A DNA stretch of 64,000 nucleotides from Bacteroidota bacterium (GTDB lineage Bacteria; Bacteroidota; Bacteroidia; J057; JAJTIE01): contig JAJTIE010000002.1 in assembly GCA_021300195.1 (NCBI GenBank), positions 1 through 64,000 on the forward strand, written 5' to 3'. A program made the translations under genes and the position numbers. The notes under the pieces were generated by a model. It saw nothing but the letters and a program-made list of their open reading frames with translations. It searched no databases and had not been told where the DNA came from. Positions 54,212 through 59,632 of this stretch are shown piece after piece; within the stretch, counting starts at the first letter, position 1, and each line of letters starts with the position of its first letter.

Positions 54212-56890
54212 ATGCGCGTAGGCATATTTTTTGGCGGCCTGTCCCGCGAGCGAGAGATCAGTTTTGCCGGTGGGCGCACGGTGTTCGACCTGCTGGATAA
54301 GTCGCGGTTTCAGCCCGTACCCATTTTTGTAGACTCGGTGGGTCGGCTCATCCTGCTCCACTGGCCCAACCTGTACAAGGGCAGCATCCGCGATTTCTAT
54401 CCGCCGGCAGCCTACACACCCCACACCGCCCTTCCTTTTCAGTACTATGCCGAGCAGCTGTATCCGGAGCTGCAAGACCACTGGACCGAGCTAATGCAGG
54501 CCGTGGGCAGGCCGCTGAGCTGGGAGGAGCTGCCGCAGTACATCGATGCGGCCTTCCTCACCCTGCATGGCCTGGGCGGCGAGGATGGCAGCCTGCAAGG
54601 CATGCTGGAATGGCTGGGCATTCCCTACACCGGCTCGGGGCTATATGGCTCGGCGGTGGGCATGGATAAGCAGCGACAAAAGCAGCTGATGCAGCTGGCG
54701 GGCTTCTCCACCCCCGCCTATGCGGTGGTACAGCTGGCCGAGAGTGCCGAGGAGTGGCATGCCAAGGCTGCCCAGATTGGCTACCCCCTGGTGGTGAAGC
54801 ACCCCACGCAGGGCAGCAGCATAGGCGTACGTATTGTGCAGCAGGCCAGCCAGCTGGCCGATGCCATCTGGCAGTGCAGCTTTCGCTACCTGCACCGGGC
54901 GGCTGCCTGGCACGCGCTAGACGAGGCCGATAAGCTGCAGCAGCTGCACCGGCTTACCGATATTCGCCATAGCCTAGGGCTGCCCCTGTATGTGCAGCTG
55001 GACGGCGAGGAGCGGCTAATCCATAGGCCCGACGTGCTGCTAGACCTGCTGAACAGCCTGCAGCAGGATGCCCTGCTACGTGCCGCAGACAGCACCGACA
55101 GCCTGCTGCTGGAGGCATTTGTGGCGGGCAGGGAGTTCTCCGTCATTGTAATAGAACAGCCAGATGGAAGCCCGCTCGCCCTGCCCCCTACCGAGATCAT
55201 TAAGGGAGCGGAGGTATTTGACTACCGCAGCAAGTACCTGCCGGGCATGAGCCGAAAGCTCACCCCCATCCGGATGGATGCCGAGGCACTGGGCGACCTG
55301 TGCCGACAGGCCGAGGCCCTGAAGGACTTTCTGGGCATAGAGGTATATGCCCGCCTGGATGGGCTGATAGACAGCCGGGGCCGGGTGTACTTCAACGACC
55401 CCAACACCACCTCGGGCATGCTGCCCAGCAGCTTCTTCTTCCACCAGGCGGCAGAGGTGGGGCTGCACCCCTCGCAGTTCCTTACCTACATCCTGCAGCG
55501 CTCGCTACAGCGGCGGGCGGCCCACCCGCGCATGCCCAGGCAGCCCCTGGCCACCTGGCAGCAGGCCCACGCCCAGCAGGGCCACAAACTGCGCGTGGGG
55601 GTACTGCTGGGCGGCTACAGCAGCGAGCGGCACATATCTGTAGAAAGCGGGCGAAACATCTATGAAAAACTGAGCGCCAGTACCGACTTTGCACCCATCC
55701 CCATCTTTGTGCTGGATAACCTGCGGGCACCGGCATCACTGGGGCTGGAGGGGCGCTTCAGCCTCTGGCAGCTACCCATACACATGCTGCTGAAAGACAA
55801 TGCCGACGACATTGCCGACCGCATACTAAACGGCCTGCTAAAGCCCGAAAGCGATGCCGGCATAGCCGCCATGCGGCAGCGGGCCGAGCCGGTGCGTGCC
55901 CTGCTGGGGGCCGCAGCCCCGGTGCCACCCCGCCTGCTGCAGCAGGGTGAGTGGCGGCAGGTAATGGACTTTGCCTTCATAGCCCTGCATGGCCGCCCGG
56001 GCGAGGATGGCACCCTGCAGGCCCTGCTGGAGCAGGCAGGCATACCCTACAACGGCAGCCCCGTGCCCAGCAGCCAGATCACCATAGACAAGTACGCCAC
56101 CACCGAGCTGCTGATGCAGGCCGGACTACGGGCGGCCCGGCACCAGCTGGTACACAAGGCCCAGTGGCAGCAAGACCCCGAGGCCGCCTGCGCAGCCGTA
56201 GAGGCCACACTCCCCTACCCCCTCATTGCCAAGCCGCACGACGAGGGCTGCAGCAGTGCCGTGAAGCGGATAAAAACGCGTGCAGAGCTGGTAGCCTACG
56301 CCAGCCTGATGTTTAGAACCGAAGACGCCCTGCCAGCTGGCCCTGCCCAGGTCTTGAACCTGAAAGCCGGGGAGGAATTCCCCCACAAGGATACCTTTCT
56401 GGTAGAGCACCTCATCCAGGGACAGCCAGGCGAGCGCTTTATGGAGGTAACCGTGGGGCTGCTAACCCACCGCGAGGCGGGCGTCATTCGCTACGAGGTG
56501 TTTGAGCCGAGCGAGGCCCTGGCTACCGGCGAGGTACTGAGCCTGGAAGAGAAGTTTCTGGCTGGCGAGGGCCAGAACATTACCCCCGCCCGCTTCAGCA
56601 GCAGGGCCAGCGAGCAGGCTGCCATCAGCCAGCTGGTAAGGCAAGAAATAGAGCAAGCCGCACGTTTGCTGGGGGTAGAGGGCTATGCGCGCATAGATGC
56701 CTTTGTACACATCCCCCCCGGAGGGGCGGCCCGTGTTTCATTTATCGAAGTAAACTCCCTACCTGGTATGACACCTGCCACCTGTATTTTTCACCAAACA
56801 GCCCTGGTAGGCTATACACCCCTGGACTTTATGCGCCGAATCATTGCCTACGGGCAGCAGCGCATGGCCACCCTACCCACTGCCCCATGA
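54212..56890 (+). CDS. ddl: tandem D-alanine--D-alanine ligase (two fused Ddl units)
   Basis: This encodes 892 residues, over twice the usual 300-370. Two complete Ddl units (about 1-430 and 460-892) each have the N-terminal GGxSxER start (GGLSREREIS; GGYSSERHIS) and an ATP-grasp domain. Unit 1: HGLGGEDG, QGSSIGVRIV, SKY with Lys341 and Tyr342, and FNDPNTTSGM with Asp396 where the metal-binding Glu is usual. Unit 2: HGRPGEDG, EGCSSAVKRI (Cys in the Ser loop), EEKF with Lys781 and Phe782 in place of Tyr, and FIEVNSLPGM with Glu846 and Asn848 intact. Ddl makes the D-Ala-D-Ala of peptidoglycan precursors in the cytoplasm. The units depart from canon at different sites, so they may have divided tasks. 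It overlaps the PASTA gene by 4 bases. Confidence 0.9.
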   Translation: MRVGIFFGGLSREREISFAGGRTVFDLLDKSRFQPVPIFVDSVGRLILLHWPNLYKGSIRDFYPPAAYTPHTALPFQYYAEQLYPELQDHWTELMQAVGRPLSWEELPQYIDAAFLTLHGLGGEDGSLQGMLEWLGIPYTGSGLYGSAVGMDKQRQKQLMQLAGFSTPAYAVVQLAESAEEWHAKAAQIGYPLVVKHPTQGSSIGVRIVQQASQLADAIWQCSFRYLHRAAAWHALDEADKLQQLHRLTDIRHSLGLPLYVQLDGEERLIHRPDVLLDLLNSLQQDALLRAADSTDSLLLEAFVAGREFSVIVIEQPDGSPLALPPTEIIKGAEVFDYRSKYLPGMSRKLTPIRMDAEALGDLCRQAEALKDFLGIEVYARLDGLIDSRGRVYFNDPNTTSGMLPSSFFFHQAAEVGLHPSQFLTYILQRSLQRRAAHPRMPRQPLATWQQAHAQQGHKLRVGVLLGGYSSERHISVESGRNIYEKLSASTDFAPIPIFVLDNLRAPASLGLEGRFSLWQLPIHMLLKDNADDIADRILNGLLKPESDAGIAAMRQRAEPVRALLGAAAPVPPRLLQQGEWRQVMDFAFIALHGRPGEDGTLQALLEQAGIPYNGSPVPSSQITIDKYATTELLMQAGLRAARHQLVHKAQWQQDPEAACAAVEATLPYPLIAKPHDEGCSSAVKRIKTRAELVAYASLMFRTEDALPAGPAQVLNLKAGEEFPHKDTFLVEHLIQGQPGERFMEVTVGLLTHREAGVIRYEVFEPSEALATGEVLSLEEKFLAGEGQNITPARFSSRASEQAAISQLVRQEIEQAARLLGVEGYARIDAFVHIPPGGAARVSFIEVNSLPGMTPATCIFHQTALVGYTPLDFMRRIIAYGQQRMATLPTAP

Positions 56891-57711
56891 GTGCAACACC
56901 CCCACCCCCCAACAGCAGCCAGCCGGCACCAGCAGGCCGTCCTCCCGTGCTTGAATACCTGAAGAGCAAAGAATTCTATGTCCTGCTAGGCATCATCCTG
57001 GGCGGGGGTCTTTTGCTGATGCTGATATTTTTCTACCTGCTACTGCCCCTGATGACCAACCACAATGAGCAGCTGGAGGTACCCCGGGTGGCCTCAGACA
57101 CAAAGACCGAACGCTTTGTAAGCCTGGAAGAAGCCGAAGCACGCCTGCTGGAAGTAGGCCTGGCGTATGAGGTGATAGACAGCAGCCAGTATGTGCCAGA
57201 ATACCCCCCCCTGGCAGTAATAGGCCAGGAGCCCGAGGCAGGTAGCGCGGTAAAGCCGGGCAGAAAAATCTACCTGAAGGTAAACCGCGCACGCGCCCCC
57301 ATGGTTAAGTTTCCAGACATTGTAGACCTGAGCTATAGCCAGGGCCGCTACACGCTGGAGAACTGGAGGCTACACCTGGGCAGCACCCGCGTAGAACCGG
57401 GCTTGGGAGACAACCTCATCCTGCGTGCCTACTACCAGGGCAGGCAGCTATCAGCGGGCGACCTGGTACCCGAGCAATCGAAAATAGACCTGGTGGTGAG
57501 CCAGCAGGCCGAGCGGGGCAAAATGAAAATGCCAGAAGTAACCGGAAAGCCCATAGACCAGGCCATGGCAGAACTGCAGCGCCTGGGCCTAATGCCCCGC
57601 CCCCGCTTCCGCACGGGCGGCGGTCCTGCTGGCGTTGTGCTCAAGCAGATACCGGCCGCACGAGACTCGGTGGCAGAGGGGAGCGTGGTTATTCTGGAAA
57701 TAACAAAATAA
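56887..57711 (+). CDS. PASTA domain membrane protein
   Basis: This encodes 274 residues. A Pro-rich cytoplasmic N-terminus (about 1-33) and one transmembrane helix (about 33-55, VLLGIILGGGLLLMLIFFYLLLPL) are followed by three periplasmic PASTA domains: about 62-132 (FVSLEEAEARLLEVGLAYEV...GQEPEAGSAVKPGRKI), 138-205 (divergent), and 210-274 (MPEVTGKPIDQAMAELQRLGL...IPAARDSVAEGSVVILEI). PASTA domains bind peptidoglycan fragments. There is no kinase or transpeptidase part, so it is a stand-alone wall-binding protein; its gene directly follows ddl, a grouping known in Bacteroidota. Confidence 0.92.
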   Translation: MSATPPPPNSSQPAPAGRPPVLEYLKSKEFYVLLGIILGGGLLLMLIFFYLLLPLMTNHNEQLEVPRVASDTKTERFVSLEEAEARLLEVGLAYEVIDSSQYVPEYPPLAVIGQEPEAGSAVKPGRKIYLKVNRARAPMVKFPDIVDLSYSQGRYTLENWRLHLGSTRVEPGLGDNLILRAYYQGRQLSAGDLVPEQSKIDLVVSQQAERGKMKMPEVTGKPIDQAMAELQRLGLMPRPRFRTGGGPAGVVLKQIPAARDSVAEGSVVILEITK

Positions 57712-57715
57712 ATCC

Positions 57716-59632
57716 ATGATACGCCCGAGCTTCATCCTTGCCTGTCTGCTCTGCTTGCTCTCTGCCAGTACCCTCCGCGCCCAGTGGGTGCTGGATGCCG
57801 AGCCTGTGGGTGCCACCCCCACCCGGCAGGAGGCTGTAGAAACGGGCTTGTACAAAACACAGGATACCGAGCTCCTGAAAACCATCGGCCTGCGGGGCAC
57901 CTGGCCCGGCCTGGAGCTATGGATCAATCGCTTCGACACGACCGGTACTTTTTCCGATACGCTGTACTTCTTCCGGAGCCGTACCGTAAAGCGTACGCTC
58001 AATCTGTCTGTCAATACACCCGACCTGGGTGTATTCACCTTTGATGGGGTGGATGCCACCGGGAATACCTATGCCAGAACACTCCTTAACGGAAAAACAG
58101 ACAGCCTGGTCAGCCATCTTATCAAGCTGGACAGTGCCTACCAGGATGGCATGGGGGGAACGCGGGCCATTACAACGGCAGACAGCCTCTACTTCTCATT
58201 TGCCTACCAGGCAGGGGGCCTGGCCGATAAGCCCGAAGAGCAAGACAGCCTGGTGCTCTATTTCCGAGACACCACTACCGTGGGCGGCCCGCGCTGGGTA
58301 CCCGTATGGCGTACTACCGGTGCGGGGCTGGATCCCCAGCGCTTTTATCGTGCCCTGGTATCCGTATCCGATGTGCGCTATCTGCATGCCCGCTTCCAGT
58401 TCAGGTTTATCAGCTACGGCAGCCAGAATGGCGTGTTCGATGTATGGCACCTGGATCAGCTCCGGCTGTATGTGGGGGGCACGCGGTTAAACCCAAACCC
58501 GATACCGGATCTGGCAATCTCTGCCGTGCAGGCCCACGTATTCGGCCCCTACACCCGTGTCAGCCGGTATCAATACCCGGCGGGCTATCCGCAGGGCAGC
58601 CTGCTGCTGGAGATAACCGGAAACCAGCCTGCCACCACAACCACTACGGCCACGGGCACGCTGGTTTTTGAGCGGAACGGCAGCAGCCAGGCACTGGGGC
58701 CCAATGCGGTGGCCGTGCCCGCAGACGGCGTGCGGGCCACCACCGGCTTCTCCCCCACCCCCCAGCCGCTGGGCAGCCAGGCAGATAGCCTCACCTTTAC
58801 CCTTACCCTACCCATGGGGGCCGCAAACAACGCCGATACCCGTCGCCAGAATGACCAGCTGGTGTATCGCACCGGTGTGGATAGCGTGCTGGCCCTGGAT
58901 GATGGAGAGGCAGACTCCGGCTTTGGCCTGAACACCAGCTTCCGGCAATCCTTTGGCCAGATTTTCCGGCTACCTGCTGGCTCAGACACGCTGCGGGCCG
59001 TGTGGCTCAGCTTTATACCCCGCTTCACCATTGCGGCTGGAAAACCCCTGGAACTGGTAATCTGGAACCGAAAGGCGAATAACCCCGACTCGGTTTTGTA
59101 CAAACAAATCGTGAGCGTGAACTATGGAACCGCCTTCAGCCACTATGAGCGCTACCGGCTCAACCGCTCCATCCTGCTGCCCGACAGCTTCATCCTCGGC
59201 CTGCGTCAGTTTGATGACGTACCCATCAACCTGGGTATAGACCTGAACTATGACTACAACCAGGGCAGAAATGTGCTGTATGACAATGAGGGCAAATGGG
59301 CCGCTACCAGCTTTGCTGGCACACTGATGATCCGGCTAGAGATGAATGGTGCCGGCTATATACCGGTTAGCCGCCGGGCAGCCGCTGGCACTGCGCCCGC
59401 TGCTAGCCTATACCCCAACCCGGCTACGCAGCTACAGCTGTACTGCCCAGCCGACTGCTACTACGAGGTGTGGGATGCCACCGGCCGGATGCACCTGGCA
59501 GGCAGGGGCCAGCAGGGGGTACAGCTCATTGCAGGCACAGACTCCCTGGCACCTGGTGTATACGCTGTGCGCGTATACATGCCCAACAAGGCAAGTGCCA
59601 CCCAAACCCTGCTAAAATGGATAAAGCCCTGA
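57716..59632 (+). CDS. T9SS type A sorting-domain surface protein
   Basis: This encodes 638 residues. The signal peptide ends at TLRAQ. Beta-rich domains of unknown type fill the middle (DFDTTGTFSDTLYFF-like strands, a lectin/jelly-roll-like appearance around 90-270), and the C-terminal 75 residues are a type A sorting domain: AASLYPNPATQLQLYC, YYEVWDATGRMHLAG, and LAPGVYAVRVYMP. The protein is exported by the T9SS and attached to the surface. It starts four bases after the PASTA gene stop, apparently in the same operon as ddl. Its role is unknown. It overlaps bshB1 by 16 bases. Confidence 0.88.
   Translation: MIRPSFILACLLCLLSASTLRAQWVLDAEPVGATPTRQEAVETGLYKTQDTELLKTIGLRGTWPGLELWINRFDTTGTFSDTLYFFRSRTVKRTLNLSVNTPDLGVFTFDGVDATGNTYARTLLNGKTDSLVSHLIKLDSAYQDGMGGTRAITTADSLYFSFAYQAGGLADKPEEQDSLVLYFRDTTTVGGPRWVPVWRTTGAGLDPQRFYRALVSVSDVRYLHARFQFRFISYGSQNGVFDVWHLDQLRLYVGGTRLNPNPIPDLAISAVQAHVFGPYTRVSRYQYPAGYPQGSLLLEITGNQPATTTTTATGTLVFERNGSSQALGPNAVAVPADGVRATTGFSPTPQPLGSQADSLTFTLTLPMGAANNADTRRQNDQLVYRTGVDSVLALDDGEADSGFGLNTSFRQSFGQIFRLPAGSDTLRAVWLSFIPRFTIAAGKPLELVIWNRKANNPDSVLYKQIVSVNYGTAFSHYERYRLNRSILLPDSFILGLRQFDDVPINLGIDLNYDYNQGRNVLYDNEGKWAATSFAGTLMIRLEMNGAGYIPVSRRAAAGTAPAASLYPNPATQLQLYCPADCYYEVWDATGRMHLAGRGQQGVQLIAGTDSLAPGVYAVRVYMPNKASATQTLLKWIKP

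Follow-up and report, generated by a model that had tools for sequence, protein, structure and literature searches.

Architecture of the locus

The window (the whole stretch of 64,000 nucleotides that was analysed) contains a gene for a D-Ala–D-Ala ligase (Ddl) in tandem form, followed on the same strand by a gene for a PASTA protein (Table 1). The tandem frame starts with ATG at 54212 and codes for 892 amino acids, internal stops being absent. The N- and C-terminal Ddl domains are each matched twice by Pfam, once per half, those of unit 1 above the cut-offs, and the confident, two-lobed AlphaFold2 model displays two Ddl folds (pLDDT 87, pTM 0.88), the latter value implying a defined arrangement of both units in the modelled chain. 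The PDB matches of the protein are Ddl enzymes. Hence, both units are complete by Pfam and AlphaFold2, in agreement with the original prediction of a tandem Ddl in one open reading frame. A further ddl, the possible presence of which had been raised along with it, was not found in the genome by PF07478 search; this search otherwise gave only weaker matches in frames of 384-1202 aa, as would be the case for other ATP-grasp enzymes. Unit 1 additionally contains a subdomain of ~65 aa inside the ATP-grasp region (aa 225-290, window 54884-55081), which is retained in truncated families.

Table 1. Features of the tandem ddl locus. Positions refer to the window; residue equivalents are those of E. 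coli DdlB.
Feature	Position	Strand	Remarks
Tandem ddl (892 aa), fusion of two Ddl units	54212..56890	+	Sole Ddl of the genome
Unit 1, aa 1-436	54212..55519	+	Canonical Ddl site, Asp at the E270 position
S202 of unit 1 (S150)	54815..54817	+	
K341-Y342 of unit 1 (K215-Y216)	55232..55237	+	
D396 of unit 1, replacing the metal ligand E270	55397..55399	+	Asp in 106/107 tandem proteins, one gapped; codon checked
Linker, aa 437-458	55520..55585	+	Poor conservation; mean column conservation 0.31; low pLDDT at aa 450-455
Unit 2, aa 459-884	55586..56863	+	ATP/Mg residues complete, amino-acid subsites altered
H474 of unit 2 (position 17)	55631..55633	+	Changes jointly with the Cys680 position in two genomes
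C680 of unit 2, replacing S150	56249..56251	+	107/107; 31-column gap-free alignment
K781-F782 of unit 2 (K215-Y216), Phe replacing Tyr	56552..56557	+	106/107, one gapped
E846 and N848 of unit 2 (retained metal ligands)	56747..56755	+	107/107
Membrane-anchored PASTA protein	56887..57711	+	4-bp overlap (ATGA) between its start and the ddl stop

Active-site residues of the two units

For residue pairing, solved Ddls served as references in an HMM alignment, complemented by an alignment with E. coli DdlB and DdlA, and the codons were checked. For unit 1, this assigns S202 to S150, K341/Y342 to K215/Y216, D383 to D257, D396 to E270, and N398 to N272 of DdlB, with R381 read in the same alignments beside D383. 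For unit 2, C680 corresponds to S150, K781/F782 to K215/Y216, D829 to D257, E846 to E270, and N848 to N272, with R827 read beside D829. All residue pairings of the original prediction proved correct in these alignments. The possibility that Cys680 is an insertion which shifts the Ser pair by one position was considered and rejected, given 31 gap-free columns around this residue.

Unit 1 displays the whole E15-S150-Y216 triad (E15 being E13) together with K215. Its metal ligands D257 and N272 are kept, and the E270 position is Asp in the full tandem proteins and also in those families that have no intact unit besides unit 1. Asp for Glu270 is a conservative change, and apart from it unit 1 is, judging from its residues, a Ddl. 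The earlier view that unit 1 might be a deviating or weakened half is not supported: Asp270 is conservative, invariant, and kept where no other intact unit accompanies it.

In unit 2, E15 of the triad (the first Glu of SAE15RE17), on which the original prediction had made no statement for either unit, is kept as E472, and the residues at S150 and Y216 are replaced by C680 and F782, so that two of the three triad residues are lost. Position 17 is occupied by His474, whereas DdlB, DdlA and unit 1 have Glu at this site. Further changes comprise Thr857 for S281, Cys858 for L282, and Leu for both Y210 and Y212. On the other hand, the residues that serve ATP, Mg and phosphate binding (K97, K144, E180, E187, K215, R255, D257, E270, and N272) are retained in 106-107 of the 107 proteins compared. 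With respect to the Phe-type ligases, unit 2 shares the Phe at Y216; the Ser that ordinary Ddls have at S150 is Cys680 here and is found in the unit 2 sequences of two genomes only (G634 and G672).

These features are stable within the tandem family. Across 107 distinct full-length tandem proteins of ~57% mean identity, D396, C680 and F782 are invariant in 106-107, which speaks against chance or a faulty assembly, and unit 1 keeps S150 and Y216 essentially without exception. The ordinary single Ddls of the phylum (31 proteins) carry Ser, Tyr and Glu at S150, Y216 and E270; a 32nd single Ddl, a divergent paralogue, has Asp at 270.

Distribution and ancestry

The tandem protein occurs in numerous families of Bacteroidota. 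In full length, it was found in 26 of the 60 relatives of the first search, and it is present in most families of the order to which G127 belongs. Among the matches listed for named organisms (at least 478 confirmed stretches) are Hymenobacter, Pontibacter, Rufibacter, Adhaeribacter, Saprospira grandis, Aureispira, Marivirga, Rhodocytophaga, and Marinoscillum. Genomes with the tandem mostly yield one match, and the same query picks up single Ddls in other genomes; hence, the tandem stands in place of the ordinary ddl. Viral contigs were considered as source or vehicle of the gene and rejected, as their 23 candidate stretches do not code for any relative. An apparent split of the gene in G037 was rejected as real, as it coincides with a contig edge. 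One contig labelled Candidatus Saccharibacteria (L096) carries a typical Bacteroidota tandem Ddl and is probably mis-binned.

Units 1 and 2 form separate and well supported clades. In a first tree, the two units grouped with each other and apart from the single Ddls (support 92), and a second tree, rooted at the midpoint only, strongly separated unit 1 from unit 2. The pattern is compatible with a single ancient duplication, after which unit 2 acquired a long stem. Mean pairwise identity in the tandem family is 57.9% for unit 2 and 57.4% for unit 1. Unit 2 is therefore as constrained as unit 1, which argues against decay. An assembly or annotation artefact, or a decaying duplicate, is hardly conceivable for a fusion that recurs in more than 100 independent genomes. 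The tandem is an ancient, internally duplicated, putative D-Ala–D-Ala ligase, and the only predicted Ddl of its host.

Losses and separations of the halves

Three families (f52, f97, and f99) encode proteins of ~555-660 aa in which unit 1 is complete and only a remnant of the N-domain is left of unit 2. They end before or within the HGxxGED motif region, the ATP-grasp core of unit 2 being lost, and the remnant is predicted to fold (pLDDT mostly 70-88). Since these proteins branch within the unit 1 clade of the tandem proteins, unit 2 was lost secondarily, with Asp270 staying in place. A Ddl profile search revealed no other Ddl in the f52 genomes G303 and G425, while a few f52 genomes do have weak or DdlA-like additional matches. 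From these observations, unit 1 with Asp270 must be a working Ddl, apparently sufficient by itself, and unit 2 is dispensable in these families. Some f52 genomes also encode an extra divergent Ddl-like protein of 314-328 aa (L155, L166, L167), with L167 on a very long branch.

Family f110, with genomes mostly of 0.7-1.9 Mb, has kept the fusion in some genera and has separate genes for the two units in others; in G661, the units lie 1.4 Mb apart on one contig. The halves are thus separable, and the fusion is not needed for either unit. This bears on a scheme in which the active sites are complementary, so that the halves would share catalysis and be inactive on their own. The original prediction had pointed in this direction, and indeed neither half is canonical at all positions. 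However, each half is otherwise residue-complete with its own ATP/Mg set, the halves are distant separate genes in f110, and each occurs without the other. The idea of two complementary, half-dead sites is therefore not supported and appears very improbable.

In G634, unit 2 is the only Ddl-family gene (L184, 7752-9032, minus strand) of a 0.7-Mb genome that is 96% complete, so that a missed unit 1 is possible; this genome also has MurF and two transpeptidases. G673 displays neither a Ddl match nor a transpeptidase match, and thus Ddl loss accompanies loss of the cross-linking enzymes. The stand-alone unit 2 genes of G634 and G672 contain canonical loops (GSSYG and GSSVG, respectively) and Asp at position 17, with Phe216 kept, and G672 still has unit 1. 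Cys and His are kept in all other unit 2 sequences with readable motifs. A free tree places unit 2 of G634 and G672 at the base of the unit 2 clade, although the data also tolerate one common clade for f110 (p-AU 0.52; unit 1 p-AU 0.09). The canonical loop in these two genomes could be a reversion or an early-branch state. As both positions change jointly in G634 and G672, by either route, Cys150 and His17 appear linked with one another and with the pairing of the units. A TAG reported within the unit 1 match of G672 was considered as a gene break and rejected, as the match reads as a single 425-aa frame. In G676 (f110, C4:16866-18045), unit 2 seems interrupted (a 357-aa frame, then TAA) beside an intact unit 1, which may reflect a pseudogene or an assembly error.

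Ddls are homodimers, and this architecture would favour a fusion. Both units might make D-Ala–D-Ala, the tandem being no more than a covalent dimer with a gain in dose or stability, and the substitutions being near-neutral for specificity. The apparent rise of unit 2 to the only ligase of G634 fits such a model. Near-neutral positions, however, would hardly stay invariant without drift across ~57% identity, and the one unit 2 that stands alone has the canonical loop. We consider this model rather unlikely, and a unit 2 with changed specificity is preferred.

The PASTA neighbour

The product of the gene downstream of the tandem ddl contains PASTA domains (Pfam) and one membrane-spanning stretch, as read from the sequence. 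A PASTA gene lies directly 3′ of the tandem ddl in 53 of the 72 loci with enough downstream sequence, and two relatives encode tandem Ddl, membrane segment and PASTA domains as one protein, with open frames of 1200 aa (L124, in G233) and 1270 aa (L105). Some single Ddls likewise have PASTA next to them or nearby, and genomes that lack unit 2 encode PASTA proteins of 250-310 aa too. On these grounds, PASTA as a partner of unit 2 alone was rejected, and the link is to the Ddl locus instead. This linkage suggests a ligase that may be tethered to the membrane on its inner side.

Two observations from the surroundings of cell-wall genes may be added. In the window, the PASTA gene is followed by a gene for a secreted-looking protein with a C-terminal sorting-domain-like end (57716-59632), and a same-strand protein family is found at the matching place in 43 of the examined loci. 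A second MurF-like match, in an 840-aa frame, was found beside a normal MurF (G000:C65:6859-8082); by its size, it is presumably the MurF-alanine racemase fusion known in Bacteroidota.

A regulatory or structural role of unit 2 deserves attention in this context. As a pseudo-ligase, unit 2 would bind ATP, D-Ala or D-Ala–D-Ala without ligating, and tune unit 1 via an intramolecular dimer interface, perhaps coupled to the membrane PASTA neighbour. The frequent Ddl-PASTA adjacency and the two natural Ddl-Ddl-TM-PASTA fusions are in line with this, as are the broken triad of unit 2 at S150 and Y216, its dispensability in f52, f97 and f99, and the folded N-domain remnant retained there. However, a protein that does not ligate would not be expected to keep all ATP/Mg/phosphate residues invariant, including K215, R255, D257, E270, and N272, nor to occur as a separate gene, once without unit 1 in a genome having MurF and transpeptidases. 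Such a role appears possible but doubtful, and the earlier suggestion of a pseudo-catalytic half is weakened accordingly: for unit 2 it is improbable given the conservation, yet it retains some chance. In contrast, the suggestion of a different acceptor or role for unit 2 appears reasonable in view of the loss of two triad residues, the Phe of depsipeptide ligases, and the invariance throughout the family.

Proposed function

We lean, with some reservation, towards unit 1 as the essential D-Ala–D-Ala ligase and unit 2 as a second, probably active site with changed specificity. The status of the tandem as sole ligase points to D-Ala–D-Ala synthesis by unit 1. According to this model, unit 1 would bind ATP, activate one D-Ala and join a second D-Ala to it, with Asp396 in place of Glu270 as ligand of the second metal. 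Unit 2 would be a specialised second ATP-grasp ligase site, in which the ATP/Mg/phosphate machinery is whole and the amino-acid subsites appear rebuilt by Cys in place of S150, Phe in place of Y216, Thr-Cys in place of S281-L282, and the His of position 17. Most likely, it would yield an alternative D-Ala–D-X product, or act as a specialised partner when conditions change.

Duplication and fusion, the status as sole ligase, the invariant substitutions, the sufficiency of unit 1 in some families, the separability of the units and the PASTA link can be read from the sequences, whereas activity and altered substrate of unit 2 are inferences. Catalytic activity of unit 2 is suggested by the invariant ATP, metal and phosphate ligands and by the occurrence of unit 2 alone in G634. 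Changed specificity is suggested by the location of its changes in the amino-acid subsites, including the Tyr-to-Phe exchange of depsipeptide ligases. In lactic acid bacteria, Phe versus Tyr at the Y216 position separates depsipeptide (D-Ala–D-Lac) from dipeptide ligases (PMC5996685). The loss of unit 2 in three families implies that its product is not essential, which would fit a regulatory role too. The Y216F mutant of E. coli DdlB retains D-Ala–D-Ala synthesis; hence, Phe216 by itself is no proof of a new acceptor, and D-lactate is to be seen as a lead rather than as a result. Unit 2 should not be named a D-Ala–D-Ala or D-Ala–D-Lac ligase on the basis of sequence alone.

A bolder version, which we put forward tentatively, is a bifunctional tandem ligase in a large part of Bacteroidota, where unit 1 makes D-Ala–D-Ala and unit 2 a D-Ala–D-X dipeptide or depsipeptide. 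Peptidoglycan precursors would then have a second, unrecognised terminus, and the loop would have become canonical again where unit 2 is the sole ligase. Ddl supplies the end of the stem peptide in peptidoglycan, an antibiotic target, and it is regarded as a single-unit enzyme. A widespread tandem with a conserved altered second site would thus mean undescribed cell-wall precursor chemistry in much of Bacteroidota. The natural splits, and the losses of either half, provide ready comparisons that make the role of the second site testable.

Comparison with known systems

No description of a tandem, duplicated or fused Ddl, or of Ddl in these genera, was found in the open-access literature. Among the 25 best NCBIfam matches there is no dedicated model of the tandem form, and the protein falls under the general Ddl models. 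With the established Ddls (TIGR01205, NF002378; E. coli DdlA and DdlB), the tandem shares the fold, both Pfam domains and the ATP/Mg/phosphate residues, unit 1 having the whole E15-S150-Y216 triad. It differs from them by two units in a chain of ~900 aa, by Asp at E270 in unit 1, and by Cys150, Phe216 and His17 in unit 2.

Like unit 2, the Phe-type D-Ala–D-Lac ligases from Leuconostoc and Lactobacillus (1ehi) and the Y216F mutant of DdlB (1iow) have Phe at Y216, and 1iow is the best PDB sequence match of unit 2. However, overall similarity of unit 2 to 1ehi is low (E=6e-11), and unlike the Phe-type ligases unit 2 also has Cys for S150, Thr for S281 and a changed position 17, and is fused to a Tyr-type ligase. 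Resistance ligases of the VanA, VanC and VanG types belong to the same superfamily and use alternative acceptors, but the tandem scores far under their NCBIfam cut-offs, and it is a housekeeping enzyme and sole Ddl rather than a resistance cassette.

In the MurC-Ddl of Chlamydiae (PRK14573), Ddl is likewise joined to a further domain from its own pathway, the partner being a Mur ligase instead of a second Ddl; the tandem scores 148 against the cut-off of 1015 of this model. The large subunit of carbamoyl-phosphate synthetase is built from tandem homologous ATP-grasp halves, both of which are active in different steps. It provides a precedent for how the ATP-grasp halves of the tandem Ddl may work, although family and reaction differ, and the tandem Ddl shows no sign of a channelled two-step reaction.
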